Source of the DNA: Bradyrhizobium sp. CB1650
GTDB lineage: Bacteria > Pseudomonadota > Alphaproteobacteria > Rhizobiales > Xanthobacteraceae
Direction of reading: 5' to 3'
DNA: 64,000 bases
Assembly (NCBI RefSeq): GCF_029761915.1
Contig: NZ_CP121695.1
Coordinates: forward strand, 2,323,501-2,387,500
Both the position numbers and the translations under genes were made by a program. This document shows, piece after piece, positions 41,710-48,479 of the stretch. The notes beneath the pieces are model-generated. The model ran no database searches and had not been told where the DNA came from. It saw nothing but the letters and a program-made list of their open reading frames with translations. The first letter of the stretch is position 1. Each line of letters opens with the position of its first letter.

Positions 41710-42918
41710 ATGACGCGCGGAGTTCGTTTGTATCTCGTCGGCTCCATCGTCCTTGTTTCGCTCGCGGGTTGCGGACGCGGCTTGTTCCAGGCCGAACGCG
41801 AACCGTGGCGGGCCGAGGCGGAGGCCGCGTGCCTGAAGTCGGGAGCGGTGAAGGAAAGTGCGGATATCGTCCGCATCGAGCCGATCTCCGGTCCCGGCGC
41901 CTGCGGCGCAGAATTTCCGCTGAAGGTCGCCGCCATCGGCGAAGCCTCGAGCAGCTATGGCTTTGCCGACGAGGAATTGCGCCCGCCTGCGAGCATCGGC
42001 AATCAGCCGCGCTGGCCGGTGACGCAGCCGCAATCGAACTATCCGCAAAGCCAGCCTTATCCGGCGCAGTCCGGCTATCCGCAGCGTTCGAACTATCCCG
42101 AGAGCGCCGCGCGCCAGCCCTCCGGCTATGGCGCGTCCTCCGGCCCGGTCTCGCTCAGTGCGCCCGGCATGGCGCCGCAGGAGGACGAGATCGACCTGCC
42201 GCCCGACGGCACCGATGCGGCGGGCGCTGCGCGCTACATGAATGCGCCGAGCTATCCGGCGCGGCCGGCGGCGCCTTATTCGCAGGCTCCCGCGCAACAG
42301 CCGTTGCCACGTCTCGGTCCCGCGCAAGGCAATCCCGTCACCGCCGTCGGACCGGTCGCAGTGAAGCCGACCGCGACGCTCGCCTGTCCGATCGTCTCCG
42401 AGCTCGACCGCTGGTTTGCCGATACCGTGCAGCCGTCGGCGACGCGCTGGTTCGGCCAGCGCGTGGTCGAGATCAAGCAGATCTCCGCCTATTCCTGCCG
42501 CGGCATGAACGGCAATCCGCATTCCCATATTTCCGAGCACGCTTTCGGCAACGCGCTCGACATCGCCGCCTTCGTGCTCGCCGACGGGCGCCGCATCTCG
42601 GTGAAGGACGGCTGGCGCGGCCTACCCGAAGAGCAGGGCTTCTTGCGCGACGTGCAATCAGGCGCGTGCGCGCATTTCACCACCGTGCTCGCGCCCGGCT
42701 CCAACGTCTATCATTACGATCACATCCACGTCGACCTGATGCGCCGCGCCAGCCGCCGACTGATCTGCCAGCCGACCGCGGTCTCCGGCGACGAGGTCGC
42801 CGCCCGTGCGCAGCAGCGCAATCCTTACGCGAGCACGCGCGATCCCTATGTGACGGGCTCGCTCGGCCGCAAGAGCAGGCACAAGGTCAACGAGGAAGAC
42901 GAGTTCGCGGACGAGTAG
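41710..42918 (+). CDS. Extensin-like (DUF882/peptidase M15-like) lipoprotein
   Basis: A 402-residue protein with a lipobox (LVSLAGCGRG) that should be anchored at a membrane. It has a Pro/Gln/Tyr-rich linker and a C-terminal domain with zinc-binding-like motifs SEHAFGNALDIAAFVLADG (H and D) and SNVYHYDHIHVDLMRR (H-x-H). This is the extensin-like C-terminal family related to metallopeptidases/DacL-type enzymes, so it may trim peptidoglycan. The C-terminus is acidic. Confidence 0.86.
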   Translation: MTRGVRLYLVGSIVLVSLAGCGRGLFQAEREPWRAEAEAACLKSGAVKESADIVRIEPISGPGACGAEFPLKVAAIGEASSSYGFADEELRPPASIGNQPRWPVTQPQSNYPQSQPYPAQSGYPQRSNYPESAARQPSGYGASSGPVSLSAPGMAPQEDEIDLPPDGTDAAGAARYMNAPSYPARPAAPYSQAPAQQPLPRLGPAQGNPVTAVGPVAVKPTATLACPIVSELDRWFADTVQPSATRWFGQRVVEIKQISAYSCRGMNGNPHSHISEHAFGNALDIAAFVLADGRRISVKDGWRGLPEEQGFLRDVQSGACAHFTTVLAPGSNVYHYDHIHVDLMRRASRRLICQPTAVSGDEVAARAQQRNPYASTRDPYVTGSLGRKSRHKVNEEDEFADE

Positions 42919-42948: not shown

Positions 42949-43073
42949 TCACTTCGCGGTCCACATCGATGTTGCGGCGACCAGCCCCATGCAGCGCTGC
43001 ACCTCGCCCGGCATGTTGTACTCGCGCACGACGTAGAGTCGCGCATGCAGCACGCCTCCCGCTGCACCACGAA
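42949..43073 (-). pseudogene. Decayed duplicate of the 3' half of the gene at 44279-44638
   Basis: The two frames read FVVQREACCMRDS and then VVREYNMPGEVQRCMGLV, matching residues FVVQREASGLRDS and RTYNVPGEVQRCMGLV of the intact small protein. A frameshift separates them and there is no start or N-terminal part. The 93-base block 42981-43073 is a direct repeat of 44320-44416, and the LanC-like gene sits between the copies. Confidence 0.82.
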
Positions 43074-43088
43074 CCGCGACACCGCGGA

Positions 43089-44282
43089 TCAGAACACGTC
43101 GATCGTCGGGAAACGCGGCTCGCCGGTGATGCAGTCCCAAAGGTATATCGCGAGGCCAACGTCGCCGGTCCAAAGCGAATAGCGTCCGCGGTCGACGACG
43201 GCCTTGGCGCCGCGATACTGGACGATGGCCGTCATGGCGAATTGGCGTGCACGGTCGAGCCAGACCGGATCGCTTGTGCGGCGGTAAAGTTTGAGGAACG
43301 CGTAGCCGTTCCCGCCGGTGCCGTGGCATAGGTTCGAACCCTTGGTCAGCGGTCCGGCGGCCCAGGTGAACCGGCCGGCATCCAAGAGAAGTTCGTCAAA
43401 GTCAGGTGTCGCGAACGGCGCGTCGGCAAATGTCGTTACCATGCCGGGTGCGCCGTGGCAGTGCTGACACAAGGTCGGCGGCGTCTCGCGCTTGCTTTTT
43501 GCGCCCCAGGTTGCTCCGACTTCAGAGCGCCACGCATTCGCTGCGAGAGTCTTCGGCACAAAATGGGCCACTTGCGCCTGCTGCGCTGGCGTCAACCAAT
43601 CCCATCCGCGCAACAATGGAATGACGTTGCCGGCGAAGCCGTGTACGGGCCCGAGCCAGCTGTCTTTGCTGCCGTAAAGATCTTGGGTCCAGAGCGAGCC
43701 GTGTGGCGTCTCGTCCAGATCGGCCAACAGCCTGGCCGCCTGCGTTTCGAAGAGCCTGCGCCATCGCGGCTCTTGTGTCATCTCGGCCATGTGGATCGCG
43801 GCCAGCATCGATCCGGGCATGCCCCACATCAGTTCACGGATCGGGAGCCCGATATTTGCTTCTGCGCGCACATGCACGAGATCGGCCAGGCTCGGCGTTG
43901 GAGCAAGACGCATGGTGAGAAGTCCGGCCCCCATGTCGCCAAAAAGCAGCGAGCCATGTTTGGCATAACCGGCTGGCGAACTACTCTCGAACTTGGCGAT
44001 CGTCCGTTCCAGGAGCTTAGGCAGCACCGGGCGAAAGTCTTTTGCGACAAGGCTCGCGCCGATACGATGCAAATAGTCGAGCGCCCAGATGACACCTGCC
44101 GCGCCATAGTAGAAACTGGGGTTGCCGTCTCCCACCCAATCGTCGCCGGGGTGACCGGGCCAAAACGTTTCGGGATCGAAATCGGCGATGGCATCGGCAA
44201 CGATGTCTTCAATCGCGGCACGGACCGCCAACTCACTCCAGGCGTCGTGCACCAGCGCGCGATGACGACCGAGGGTGATCAT
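43089..44282 (-). CDS. LanC-like protein (lanthionine-synthetase C fold), stand-alone
   Basis: A 397-residue alpha/alpha-toroid protein. Zinc-site residues fit the LanC pattern: Cys275 in CQHCHGAPGM, and Cys319-His320 in NLCHGTGGNG; the further His-Gly motif SWLGPVHGFAGN (His214) matches the catalytic His region, and WGMPGSMLAA another core motif. In lantibiotic systems LanC cyclises Cys onto dehydroalanine; eukaryotic LANCL proteins add glutathione to dehydrated Ser/Thr. No LanB/LanM dehydratase or precursor is in the window. It overlaps the upstream small gene by four bases (ATGA). Confidence 0.88.
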   Translation of the reverse strand: MITLGRHRALVHDAWSELAVRAAIEDIVADAIADFDPETFWPGHPGDDWVGDGNPSFYYGAAGVIWALDYLHRIGASLVAKDFRPVLPKLLERTIAKFESSSPAGYAKHGSLLFGDMGAGLLTMRLAPTPSLADLVHVRAEANIGLPIRELMWGMPGSMLAAIHMAEMTQEPRWRRLFETQAARLLADLDETPHGSLWTQDLYGSKDSWLGPVHGFAGNVIPLLRGWDWLTPAQQAQVAHFVPKTLAANAWRSEVGATWGAKSKRETPPTLCQHCHGAPGMVTTFADAPFATPDFDELLLDAGRFTWAAGPLTKGSNLCHGTGGNGYAFLKLYRRTSDPVWLDRARQFAMTAIVQYRGAKAVVDRGRYSLWTGDVGLAIYLWDCITGEPRFPTIDVF

Positions 44283-44638
44283 GACTTGAGCTTTGCGGCG
44301 TGTGTTGATGGCGGTGGGACCAGCCCCATGCAGCGCTGCACCTCGCCCGGCACGTTATAGGTGCGCATGATCTGGCGGCTGTCGCGCAGGCCGGACGCCT
44401 CCCGCTGTACCACGAACATCCAGAGCGCATGGCCCGCCTCCGTCACCAGCTTGCGCCGTGCCGGCTGCGCCGATGCCGGGGCGTCCGAGGTTGGATGAGC
44501 GGCGTCGAACTCATGCAAGCGAGCGAGGGCTTCTTCCAGCGCTCGCCCCATTCGTCCCAACGCAGAGGCCTGCTCCTGGACGATCTCATAGTTGAGAACA
44601 TCGACGGGTGTGCGATGGAGGTGAAGATCGCGGGACAT
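44279..44638 (-). CDS. Small conserved protein coupled to the LanC-like gene (possibly DUF6665)
   Basis: A 119-residue helical cytosolic protein. N-terminal DVLNYEIVQEQASALGRM, the central RRKLVTEAGHALWMFVVQREAS and RTYNVPGEVQRCMGLVPPP are conserved between this copy and the decayed copy downstream. One Cys in the whole protein. I think it belongs to the DUF6665 group, but that is from memory. Its stop overlaps the LanC start, so the pair is one translational unit. It could be partner or substrate of the LanC-like protein. Confidence 0.7.
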   Translation of the reverse strand: MSRDLHLHRTPVDVLNYEIVQEQASALGRMGRALEEALARLHEFDAAHPTSDAPASAQPARRKLVTEAGHALWMFVVQREASGLRDSRQIMRTYNVPGEVQRCMGLVPPPSTHAAKLKS

Positions 44639-44691: not shown

Positions 44692-45327
44692 TCACTTCCC
44701 GCGGTACGCCGCCAGAAACATCCGCGTTGCGCTGTCGATGACTTTAGCCATGCGTTCCTCCGACGGCGCGGGCGCGGCCTGGAAGATGAAGGGCAGGAAC
44801 AGCGAGGCCTTGCACAACTCCATGAATTGCGAGGCGGCGAGGTCGCAATCGTCGATCCTGAGATCGCCGGAGGCGACATGGGCCCTGAGATATTCGGCGA
44901 GCCGGTTGATGGTCTTGTCCAGCACGCGTGCGTAGTAGCGGCGGCCGACGTCGGGCATGCGCTCGGCGATCGCCATCACGGTCCGGATCGCCGATCCGCC
45001 GCCGGGTCGGCAGAGCAGGTGGATGTAGGCCGAGCCGAACTCCTTCAGCGTGGTCTCGACATCGCGGGCGGGATCGAAATTGAACACGACCTGACCGTGC
45101 TGCAGCGCCTCCTGTTCGAGGATTGCCTCGAACAACGCGCATTTGTCGGCGAAATAGACGTAGAGTGTGCCTTTGGAGACGGCGGCCGCCCGCGCAATCT
45201 CGCCCATGCTGGCGCCGTCGAAACCGAGATCCATGAACACCTTGCGGGCGCCATCCAGGATCTGGCGGCGCTTGGAGTTGTCCTCTTCGGAGACAAGACG
45301 CAGATGTTCGTGATCGATTGCAACCAT
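44692..45327 (-). CDS. TetR-family repressor of the EmrAB pump
   Basis: A 211-residue regulator from the ATG at 45327. N-terminal HTH: RRQILDGARKVFMDLGFDGA and SMGEIARAAAVSKGTLYVYF. The ligand-binding part (residues 70-211) is helical. The gene is divergent from the emrA/emrB pair and a palindromic operator lies between. An orthologous arrangement in Bradyrhizobium japonicum is the flavonoid-responsive FrrA system, so an isoflavonoid inducer is possible but not shown. Confidence 0.88.
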   Translation of the reverse strand: MVAIDHEHLRLVSEEDNSKRRQILDGARKVFMDLGFDGASMGEIARAAAVSKGTLYVYFADKCALFEAILEQEALQHGQVVFNFDPARDVETTLKEFGSAYIHLLCRPGGGSAIRTVMAIAERMPDVGRRYYARVLDKTINRLAEYLRAHVASGDLRIDDCDLAASQFMELCKASLFLPFIFQAAPAPSEERMAKVIDSATRMFLAAYRGK

Positions 45328-45426
45328 TGGTTTAGGGTCTCGAAAGGTTTGTCTCGGGGTCGTGGACCATGGATGCCCAAGCAAAGGATTCGCTAGTAGG
45401 ATCCCCTCCAGAGGGAACAATCTAGA

Positions 45427-45447
45427 TTGACCGAACGGTTCAGTCAA
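45427..45447 (+). promoter_or_regulatory. Palindromic TetR operator between tetR and emrA
   Basis: Arms TTGACCGAAC and GTTCAGTCAA flank a central G; one position per arm and the centre deviate from perfect symmetry. The left arm coincides with a -35-like TTGACC 16 bases before GATAGT (45449-45454), so binding would block the pump promoter. The spacing suits a TetR dimer. Confidence 0.8.
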
Positions 45448-45526: not shown

Positions 45527-46864
45527 ATGGCCGCATCGAGAGACCAGGCTGCCCGTATCCTTCGCCAGGAACCGGCGGACCGATCGTCGGACCAAGCGCC
45601 GGAACTCGGTGGCGGGGAGGTCGCGACGGAGAAGTCGGCTGCGCTGGCCGAGCAGTTGCGCTCTCATGTGGCTGAGGAAGGCAAGCGCCACACCGTCGAG
45701 GTGCCGGAGACGCCCGTAACCGACAAGCCGGCTCCCAACGCACCCGCGCCGCAGGCCACGGGCAGCGCTCCCAAATCCGGCAAGCGCAAATTCGTCCTGA
45801 TGGGCGTCGGCATGCTGCTGGCGCTCGCGGCGGCGAGCTATGCGGGCTACTACACGCTGATCGGCCGCTTCTACGTCTCCACCGACGACGCCTATGTCCG
45901 CGCCAACAACACCATGCTGGGCGCGCGCGTCGCCGGTCACATCTCCTCGATCCTCGCCGGCGACAACACGCTGGTGCATGCGGGCGACACCGTCTTCCGC
46001 ATCGACGACGGCGACTACAAGATCGCGGTCGATGCCGCCGCCACCAAGATCGCGACCCAGCAGGCCACCATCGATCGCATCGGCCGCCAGGTCGCCGCGC
46101 TCGACAGCCAGGTCACGCAGGCCAAGGCACAGCTTGTCTCCGCCGAAGCCGGCCTCAAGCGCGCCGATCTCGATTATGAGCGCCAGCAGGCGCTGAGCAG
46201 CAAGGGCTTTGCCTCGCGCGCCACGTTCGAGACCTCCGAAGCCGGACGTGACCAGGGCGCCGCCGCGGTCAAGGCAGCGCAAGCCGCTTACGATGTGGCG
46301 ATCAGCAATGTCGACGTCGCCAAGGCCCAGCAGGCCGAGGCGCAGGCACAGCTCGCCGAGCTCAAGACCATGCTCGCCAAGGCCGAGCGTGACCTCGGCT
46401 TCACCTCGGTGCGTGCGCCGGTCGACGGCATCTTCTCCAACCGTCTCGTCAACATCGGCGACTTCGTCGCGGTCGGCCAGCGTCTCGGAAACATCGTGCC
46501 GCTCGACGACGTCTATATCGATGCCAATTTCAAGGAAACGCAGCTCAAGCGCATCCGTCCCGGCCAGCCGGTGACGATCAAGGTCGATGCCTACGGCATG
46601 CGTAAATTCAGCGGCGTCGTCGATAGCATCGCGGCGGGCGCGGGCTCGGTGTTCACGCTGCTGCCGCCGGACAACGCCACCGGCAACTTCACCAAGATCG
46701 TGCAGCGCGTGCCGGTCCGCATTCGCGTGCCGAAGTCGGTTGCCAGGCAGAACCTGCTTCGCGCCGGCATGTCGGTCTACGCGACCGTCGATACCAACAA
46801 GGGCGCGGCCGACGCCGACAGCGAGATCGATCTCGACGATCCCACCATGGTCCATCCGCAGTAG
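45527..46864 (+). CDS. emrA: EmrA-type membrane fusion protein
   Basis: A 445-residue periplasmic adaptor: a long N-terminal cytosolic stretch, one TM (GKRKFVLMGVGMLLALAAAS), the YVSTDDAYVRANNTMLGARVAGHIS start, a coiled coil (VAALDSQVTQAKAQLVSAEA ... AQAQLAELKTMLAKAERDL) and the barrel GFTSVRAPVDGIFSNRLVNI. It links the inner-membrane pump to an outer-membrane channel, which is not in the window. GGGAGG upstream of the ATG. Confidence 0.95.
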   Translation: MAASRDQAARILRQEPADRSSDQAPELGGGEVATEKSAALAEQLRSHVAEEGKRHTVEVPETPVTDKPAPNAPAPQATGSAPKSGKRKFVLMGVGMLLALAAASYAGYYTLIGRFYVSTDDAYVRANNTMLGARVAGHISSILAGDNTLVHAGDTVFRIDDGDYKIAVDAAATKIATQQATIDRIGRQVAALDSQVTQAKAQLVSAEAGLKRADLDYERQQALSSKGFASRATFETSEAGRDQGAAAVKAAQAAYDVAISNVDVAKAQQAEAQAQLAELKTMLAKAERDLGFTSVRAPVDGIFSNRLVNIGDFVAVGQRLGNIVPLDDVYIDANFKETQLKRIRPGQPVTIKVDAYGMRKFSGVVDSIAAGAGSVFTLLPPDNATGNFTKIVQRVPVRIRVPKSVARQNLLRAGMSVYATVDTNKGAADADSEIDLDDPTMVHPQ

Positions 46865-46889: not shown

Positions 46890-48479
46890 ATGGCCAACGC
46901 CGCGACCGCATCACCTGCCACGATGACGAACCCCGCTTCGGAGCGCATCGCGCCGAAGCGGCTGTTCGCCTTCATCATCATGGTGTTCGGGATGTTCATG
47001 TCGATCCTGGACATCCAGATCGTCTCGGCGTCCCTCAGCGAGATCCAGGCCGGACTGTCGGCGAGCTCGAGCGAGGTCTCCTGGGTCCAGACCGCCTATC
47101 TGATCGCCGAAGTGATCGCGATCCCGCTGTCGGGATTCTTGTCGCGCGCGTTCGGCACGCGGCTGTTGTTTGCGATCTCGGCCGCCGGCTTCACCTTCTC
47201 GAGCCTGCTCTGCGGTTTCGCCAGCACGATCGAGGAGATGATCCTCTGGCGCGCGCTGCAGGGTTTTCTCGGCGCCGGCATGATCCCGACGGTGTTCGCT
47301 TCGGCCTACACCGTCTTCCCGCGATCCAAATTCCACATCGTCGGTCCCATCATCGGTCTGGTCGCGACACTGGCCCCCACCGTCGGACCGACGGTCGGCG
47401 GCGTCATCACCGACGCGATGTCGTGGCACTGGCTGTTCTTCATCAACGTCATTCCCGGCATCGGCATCACCATCGGCGTGCTGGCGCTGGTCGATTTCGA
47501 CGAGCCGCATTTCGAGCTGCTCGATCGCTTCGACTGGTGGGGCCTGATCTTCATGGCAGGCTTCCTCGGCACGCTGGAATATGTGCTGGAGGAAGGCCCG
47601 CAATACGAATGGCTCCAGGACACTTCGGTCGCGATCTGCGCCTGGATCTGTGCCATCTCGGCGATTGCCTTCTTCTGCCGTGTCTTCACGGCGGCCGAGC
47701 CGATCGTCAATCTGCGCACCTTCACCGACCGCAATTTCGCCGTCGGTTGCACGCTGCAATTCTGCATCGGCATCGGGCTCTACGGCCTGACCTACATCTA
47801 TCCGCGCTATCTCGCCGAGGTCCGCGGCTACAGCGCACTGATGATCGGTGAGACCATGTTCGTTTCCGGCATCACCATGTTCCTGGTGGCGCCGCTGGTC
47901 GGCCGGCTGATGGCGTCGCTCGACATGCGCTACATGGTCGCGTTCGGCCTGATCGTGTTCGCGATCGGCTCCTACCAGATGACCTGGATCACGCGCGAGT
48001 TCGACTTCTACGAGCTCCTGATACCGCAGATCCTGCGCGGCATCGGCATGATGTTCGCGATGGTGCCGACCAACAACATCGCGCTCGGCACACTGCCGCC
48101 GGACCGGGTGAAGAACGCCTCCGGACTGTTCAACCTGATGCGCAATCTCGGCGGCGCGGTCGGGCTCGCCGTCATCAACACCGTTCTCAACGACCGCACC
48201 GACCTGCACATCATGCGCCTGCAGGAGCGGGTGACCTGGGGCAACGCCACCGCGACCGAAACCCTGAACATGTTCATGCAGAAGTTTCAGGGGCTCGGGG
48301 ATTCCACCCTGATGGCGATGAAGCAGCTCAGCCAGCTCGTGCACCGCCAGGCCGTGGTGATGAGCTTTGGCGATGCCTTCTTCATCCTGACGCTGTTCTA
48401 TCTCGGCCTCAGCCTGCTGGTCACGCTGCTGAACAGGCCGGCTGCGCCGTTTGGCAGCGGCGGCGGCGACGCGCATTAG
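46890..48479 (+). CDS. emrB: DHA2-family (EmrB/QacA) 14-TM drug:proton antiporter
   Basis: A 529-residue MFS pump. Motif C-like segment LAPTVGPTVGG and the motif-A-like SGFLSRAFGTRLLF are present, together with LDIQIVSASLSEIQ in TM1, and 14 membrane segments can be counted. It follows emrA by 25 bases, so the two form one operon. Likely exports hydrophobic or phenolic compounds. Confidence 0.94.
   Translation: MANAATASPATMTNPASERIAPKRLFAFIIMVFGMFMSILDIQIVSASLSEIQAGLSASSSEVSWVQTAYLIAEVIAIPLSGFLSRAFGTRLLFAISAAGFTFSSLLCGFASTIEEMILWRALQGFLGAGMIPTVFASAYTVFPRSKFHIVGPIIGLVATLAPTVGPTVGGVITDAMSWHWLFFINVIPGIGITIGVLALVDFDEPHFELLDRFDWWGLIFMAGFLGTLEYVLEEGPQYEWLQDTSVAICAWICAISAIAFFCRVFTAAEPIVNLRTFTDRNFAVGCTLQFCIGIGLYGLTYIYPRYLAEVRGYSALMIGETMFVSGITMFLVAPLVGRLMASLDMRYMVAFGLIVFAIGSYQMTWITREFDFYELLIPQILRGIGMMFAMVPTNNIALGTLPPDRVKNASGLFNLMRNLGGAVGLAVINTVLNDRTDLHIMRLQERVTWGNATATETLNMFMQKFQGLGDSTLMAMKQLSQLVHRQAVVMSFGDAFFILTLFYLGLSLLVTLLNRPAAPFGSGGGDAH

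Follow-up and report, generated by a model that had tools for sequence, protein, structure and literature searches.

The window, that is, the whole stretch of 64,000 nucleotides that was analysed (C1:2323501-2387500), lies in a host genome of one contig of 9.43 Mb, and the nearest named relatives of this genome are Bradyrhizobium. The features around the LanC-like gene are listed in Table 1. The first-pass annotation had described a LanC-like protein of 397 residues whose gene overlaps that of a 119-residue small protein by four bases, as well as a copy of the 3' half of the small gene on the far side of the LanC-like gene. Both open reading frames and the ATGA overlap were confirmed. The copy was recovered in a local alignment with 82 of 100 positions identical and 4 gap positions; since the E-value of this search of the two short stretches was ~1e-25, the repeat is not due to chance. 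Positions 42968-43031 were 83% identical to 44307-44370, and positions 43038-43085 were 81% identical to 44381-44428. The decayed copy starts a few bases beyond the LanC stop and comprises the 3' half only. On the same side, synteny showed the extensin-like flank gene to be present in LanC-less genomes as well (L118 and L124).

Table 1. Features of the LanC-like locus, with positions numbered from the first base of the window.
Feature	Position	Strand	Evidence
Stand-alone LanC-like gene, 397 aa	43089..44282	-	PF05147 (E=2.9e-19); family and LANCL1/LANCL2 profile alignments
A-type DUF6665 gene (119 aa) preceding LanC	44279..44638	-	PF20370 (E=4e-9)
ATGA overlap of DUF6665 stop and LanC start	44279..44282	-	Sequence; no Shine-Dalgarno string before LanC
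Decayed, frameshifted DUF6665 3' half beyond LanC stop	42953..43085	-	Repeat comparison; two trees
3' part of intact DUF6665 gene, second direct-repeat copy	44307..44428	-	Repeat comparison
Flanking gene for a protein with an extensin-like C-terminal domain	41710..42918	+	PF06904 (E=8.4e-51); synteny
Gene on the opposite flank, TetR regulator with AefR-like C-terminus	44692..45447	-	PF14246 (E=2.4e-41); synteny
Putative HlyD and putative MFS genes, beyond TetR	45527-46864, 46890-48479	+	Names read from sequence

Family and active site of the LanC-like protein

The LanC-like protein matched the LANC_like model PF05147 with 69.3 bits (cut-off 23.2). In NCBIfam, the matches of weight were to the LanL, LanM, and LanKC models, all far under the cut-offs, with LanL (1.3e-23) and LanM (4.9e-18) reaching only 83 of 650 and 64 of 304 bits, respectively. 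A family profile was built from 42 sequences, namely the window protein and 41 of the best 80 loci from a scan of species. Compared with solved structures, this profile matched LANCL2 (1.7e-33), LANCL1 (2.8e-31), and chain 3t33 (3.1e-29); the latter is listed as a G protein coupled receptor, and we take it to be plant GCL2. LicM2, a LanM protein, was matched at 0.0044 only, and NisC was absent among the matches up to E=10. With the window protein alone as query, the LANCL2, LANCL1, and 3t33 kinds were the sole matches up to E=1. In a control, the class I LanC encoded beside LanB in Nannocystis matched LanC (8byk) and NisC among the solved structures and gave no LANCL match up to 0.01. The maximum-likelihood tree, in which the outgroup branches were very long, separated 43 family members from a class I LanC and a kinase-LanC (one sequence each) with support of 96/97. 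The structure model of the protein was confident and mainly helical (pLDDT 94.4, pTM 0.94).

The residues His214, Gln273, Cys275, Lys314, Cys319, His320, Arg367, and Thr372 were present in all 42 aligned sequences, and His276 in 41 of them. The zinc ligands Cys275, Cys319, and His320 were thus kept across very distant relatives together with the catalytic His214, and no loss in relatives was seen, so that the intact site read earlier from the window alone was borne out. Residues were mapped by sequence alignment, counted from Cys276 and Cys322 of LANCL1. The profile alignments equated His214 with His219, Gln273 with His274, Cys275 with Cys276, His276 with His277, Lys314 with Lys317, Cys319 with Cys322, His320 with His323, and Thr372 with Glu374. 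For residue 277, PMC9934072 gives His in the eukaryotic LANCL proteins and mostly Tyr in bacterial LanC. At position 276, the family follows the LANCL type with His, as against Tyr in class I LanC; in the Nannocystis class I LanC, the Tyr was located by eye.

The pocket for the thiol was kept only in part. In LANCL1, His323, Arg364, Asp367, and Glu374 hold the Glu end of glutathione, as described in PMC9934072, and one of these four, His323, is retained in the family. In the sequence alignment, Arg364 corresponds to a variable residue, Asp367 to Arg or Gln, and Glu374 to an invariant Thr; in addition, His274 is replaced by Gln. At the Gly end of glutathione, Lys317 is kept as Lys314 in 42 of 42 sequences, while the profile alignments stop short of the N-terminus, where Arg6 is a candidate counterpart of LANCL1 Arg4. 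An N-terminal Arg-His was present in 40 of the 42 rows, the other two being gaps, and Arg367, Leu370, Trp371, Thr372, and Gly373 form an invariant C-terminal motif. Thr372 is better seen as a hallmark of the family than as evidence against glutathione, because Arg364 is likewise missing from 3t33 as aligned and a Glu, located by eye, stands at the place of Glu374 in the Nannocystis class I LanC; NisC, according to PMC9934072, does not bind glutathione. To judge from these residues, the way in which the thiol is bound probably differs somewhat from that of glutathione in LANCL1.

Comparison with the known systems showed that the family shares with LANCL1, LANCL2, and GCL2 the best solved-structure profile matches, the zinc ligands, the equivalents of His219, His277, and Lys317, and the stand-alone form. 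It differs from them in being bacterial, in the replacement of Arg364, Asp367, Glu374, and His274 of LANCL1, and in its own C-terminal motif and N-terminal Arg-His. The LANC_like domain, zinc ligands, and catalytic His are common to class I LanC proteins such as NisC; however, no LanB was found in the genome, His stands for Tyr, and NisC was missed by the profile. The LanM, LanKC, and LanL synthetases also carry the LANC_like domain, whereas the 397 residues of the window protein contain the LanC domain only, with no fused dehydratase or kinase. On sequence grounds, the protein is a member of a stand-alone bacterial family, a single LANCL-type clade recognisable by a set of residues of its own.

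Distribution of the family and search for lanthipeptide machinery

A scan of one genome each of 84,980 species gave 388 pattern matches, 245 of which encode relatives, and the best 80 were kept. These best 80 of 245 include Alpha- and Betaproteobacteria, a gammaproteobacterial MAG, Cyanobacteria, and Myxococcota; the family was found in Pseudomonadota, Cyanobacteriota, and Myxococcota. Within the order, it was detected in 5 of 347 genomes, one of them weakly. LanC was matched in 49 of 265 Bradyrhizobium genomes, and these matches were sorted into 38 near full-length genes (one with a stop at codon 15), two divergent ones, one kinase-LanC, two broken or cut genes, and six fragments. A genome of this genus encodes a 794-residue protein with kinase and LanC-like parts, a class III/IV-type lanthipeptide synthetase (L110:4179-6563, G029).

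Stubs or broken copies of LanC occurred in G083, G091, G141, G166, G213, and G240. They lay beside DUF6665 in L107 (G091), L109 (G141), L104 (G166), and L105 (G213), and away from it in G083 (L106). Because of the decayed copies in these last five genomes, the loss of LanC is frequent, and the gene, being patchy and often decayed, is dispensable. The dN/dS values of the LanC-like genes were 0.08-0.30 (13 pairs computed, of 14), which shows an enzyme under selection where present, though often lost. A phage origin of LanC was rejected, as there was no phage match, and so was a plasmid origin, with only two plasmid records matched, the match from Microvirga reaching 43.5% across 91% of the query and that from Paenibacillus being weak. 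PADLOC and PHROGs gave no match, and assignment to a defence or phage family was discarded.

The absence of a visible dehydratase, first noted in the window, extended to the whole genome in the searches made. The genome encodes one LANC_like protein only, and profile searches with three models, DUF4135, Lant_dehydr_N (PF04738), and the HopA1-type lyase, gave no match in it. The HopA1 model matched in one control genome; no control genome was matched by DUF4135 or Lant_dehydr_N, although both models matched in other genomes of the family survey. This survey covered 30 named genomes with the family, taken from the 80 loci with a preference for isolates. A single LANC_like protein was found in 28 of them, DUF4135 in one, and Lant_dehydr_N in two (G284 and G292), and in those three genomes the dehydratase was on another contig (G284, G293) or ~6 Mb away (G292). 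In G293, the match to DUF4135 (LanM dehydratase-type) lies in a 538-codon open frame (C187:114454-115533, L236), and the sole LANC_like match is on another contig. G292 carries the LanB-LanC class I locus of Nannocystis poenicansa (C1:2774507-2777763; L206, L237) at that distance from its lone family LanC, and the two LanC proteins form a natural pair for comparison.

The LANCL-like role suggested in the first-pass annotation, for example thiol addition to dehydrated residues, was supported by the sequence: the profile matches, His276, and the lack of a dehydratase in the searches speak for it, although the glutathione residues of LANCL1 are only partly kept. Intermolecular thiol addition is the role that we favour from the sequence data. 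Also counted against this LANCL-type reading were the NCBIfam matches to the LanL, LanM, and LanKC models, the dispensability of the gene, and the fact that the genome has no known source of dehydrated residues.

The protein might instead be a cyclase that forms rings in an unrecognised precursor peptide dehydrated by an unknown enzyme encoded elsewhere. Such a role would suit the three Glu-end glutathione residues of LANCL1 that are not kept and the presumed efflux genes (HlyD, MFS) near the window's site, and some unclassified LanC-like proteins are encoded among transporters and proteases and are suspected of a new RiPP class in PMC7268733. However, no gene family except DUF6665 was common to different sites in the genus (60 loci), nor was any other small ORF among the called genes, ORFs below 40-50 aa not being called. 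The 63 far loci L142-L204 comprise five Bradyrhizobium records, one unplaced close relative, and 57 records from elsewhere; in similarity clusters, with the same lower bound on called ORFs, the LanC cluster itself covered 62 of the 63 loci and no neighbour family occurred in more than 10. Together with the negative dehydratase and lyase searches and with His rather than Tyr at position 276, this makes the cyclase unlikely.

The DUF6665 neighbour and the history of the site

The small protein matched PF20370 with 37.1 bits (cut-off 27). Its structure model (pLDDT 80.5) consists of two long and two short helices, with low confidence at residues 112-119; comparison with solved structures gave no match up to E=1, and a literature search on DUF6665 found no paper. 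In the window, the gene stands beside presumed TetR-HlyD-MFS genes, and HlyD and MFS matches were near it in three of the five plasmid loci fetched (L255, L278, and L279; Rhizobium and Neorhizobium). DUF6665 as an efflux gene was rejected, since an HlyD match was near none of 20 loci of other genera, which gave one weak MFS match. About 22 Bradyrhizobium genomes, sorted by score, carry a divergent B-type DUF6665, 37-49% identical to that of the window where aligned; in 21 of these no further DUF6665 was seen, as though B had taken the place of A.

DUF6665 was found in 194 of the 265 Bradyrhizobium genomes, and thus the small gene occurs mostly without LanC. It was present in 29 of the 38 genomes with near full-length LanC and in 165 of the 227 others, which include 11 genomes with LanC fragments or a broken or distant LanC (Fisher p=0.70). 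The two genes were adjacent in 22 of the 38 genomes, at three separate chromosomal sites: DUF6665-A precedes LanC at one site (11 genomes), and DUF6665-B follows it at two others (11 genomes, one of the copies being broken). The other 16 loci had no adjacent DUF6665 within flanks of 700 and 1000 bases, one of them having DUF6665-B ~1 kb off. Moreover, DUF6665 was absent from the fetched flanks (up to 6 kb per side) of the 63 LanC loci L142-L204. The earlier proposal that the small protein is a partner or target of the LanC-like protein is not supported, since occurrence of the small gene mostly without LanC was the outcome named there as refuting it.

A functional pair, with DUF6665 as substrate, leader-binding partner, or regulator, would account for the adjacency at three sites in 22 genomes and for the overlap of the LanC start with DUF6665 at the window's site; in addition, LanC and DUF6665-B seem to travel together, 518 nt beyond LanC being alike between two sites. 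We nevertheless regard it as distinctly improbable, given the 16 loci without an adjacent DUF6665, a co-occurrence by genome that is as expected by chance, and an order of the two genes that is not fixed. Furthermore, among the 347 genomes of the order, DUF6665 is present in 95, against strong matches to the LanC family in four. Of the 84 DUF6665 loci from other genera, 20 were fetched, and LanC was near none of these. That the genes adjoin at three sites probably exceeds chance; because their order varies and the pairing is not conserved, we read it as a history of moving and landing together and not as shared function. DUF6665 is thus probably no dedicated partner of the LanC-like protein and is a neighbour where LanC happened to land.

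LanC sits at several chromosomal sites in Bradyrhizobium, many of them with a leader that is shared across unrelated sites (loci L074-L099). The stretch before LanC was alike over ~100-165 bases between two sites and with the single sites L090, L091, L093, L096, and L099; the likeness was weaker with L076 and one further site, and no leader match was found at L075 and L089. Beyond the LanC stop, little was shared (29-39 bases, two pairs) except for the 518 bases between the two DUF6665-B sites. L098 may be the same site as another, because a downstream stretch is common to both. At the window's site, the LanC leader was not found, and a Shine-Dalgarno string preceded LanC in 0 of 11 loci, against 20 of 25 loci elsewhere, in a count of related, not independent, sequences from which 5 of 41 rows were dropped because the start was not set. 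A string like that of the LanC leader (CTCAGG before ATG) was present at the joint in some loci of this site.

Phylogenetic analysis placed the LanC genes of the window's site in one clade (support 1.00). The LanC-joined 3' halves of DUF6665 grouped together with low support (0.625), and in the tree of the 5' halves four LanC-less genomes fell among the LanC-joined ones (0.947). The old 3' half is still visible only in the window and in L065. These two displaced copies paired together and were outside the LanC-joined 3' group in both trees, which supports the earlier view of the repeats as a sign of insertion at the small gene. Their placement differed: in the first tree they were among LanC-less genomes, and in the second they were beside the group formed by the four LanC-less and all LanC-joined genomes.

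Three DUF6665 matches were found in the host genome, namely the gene, the copy beyond LanC, and a further 3' fragment. This third fragment (L205:8198-8314; G000 C1:2866197-2866313) lies ~500 kb away, adjoins a putative IS5-like transposase frame, and looks like another broken copy. The idea that a known element has its attachment site in the repeats was rejected; the third copy looks broken, and the identified flank genes include no integrase or transposase.

These data suggest that LanC, a gene found at several sites, probably entered a resident DUF6665 gene at its 3' end, bringing a new 3' end for that gene but neither the LanC leader nor a Shine-Dalgarno string. The old 3' half would have been left downstream as the repeat, and LanC would now probably be translated by coupling to DUF6665. 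As the sequences compared are so short, an early duplication may be the origin of the repeat instead of insertion.

Proposed function and significance

On balance, we lean towards a joint explanation in which the gene encodes a stand-alone LANCL-type zinc enzyme, DUF6665 is no dedicated partner, and LanC was inserted at a resident DUF6665 gene. In the proposed mechanism, zinc held by Cys275, Cys319, and His320 would bind and activate a thiol, which would then add to proteins or peptides at dehydroalanine or dehydrobutyrine residues, while His276 would steady the enolate and His214 would protonate it. From such thiol addition to dehydrated residues we propose that the enzyme quenches these reactive residues (damage control); alternatively, it may run the reaction backwards, LANCL1 and LANCL2 having been reported to take glutathione off adducts (PMC9993889). 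No lanthipeptide would be made in either case. That the protein no longer adds thiols, or never did, and has a binding or regulatory role would fit the patchy, often decayed LanC genes of Bradyrhizobium and is very unlikely in view of the zinc and catalytic residues kept in very distant relatives and of the purifying selection.

Walker (2020) counted 3052 LanC-like genes without a dehydratase, of which 1392 were unclassified after sorting (PMC7268733). The family described here likewise has a LANC_like domain without a nearby dehydratase and presumably falls among these unclassified proteins. A literature search for a stand-alone bacterial LANCL-type family found no account of one, which is not proof of absence. 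With its LANCL-type residues, changed thiol pocket, and no dehydratase found, the family is a defined, testable part of the unclassified remainder.

The site itself suggests, base by base, how a wandering gene comes to overlap an unrelated resident gene, and it is a warning that gene overlap need not mean partnership. As for the role of the family, we put forward as a tentative, rather doubtful possibility that it is a LANCL-type enzyme with which bacteria from at least three phyla repair or tag dehydrated Ser, Thr, or Cys residues of the proteins they make; the thiol would be one other than glutathione, or else glutathione bound in a novel manner. If this is true, bacteria would have their own equivalent of the LANCL protein-quality system, one that was missed because LanC genes lacking a dehydratase were put aside in genome mining. 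If the enzyme is active, thiol quenching of dehydrated residues would not be only eukaryotic, and the changed pocket might point to a different thiol.
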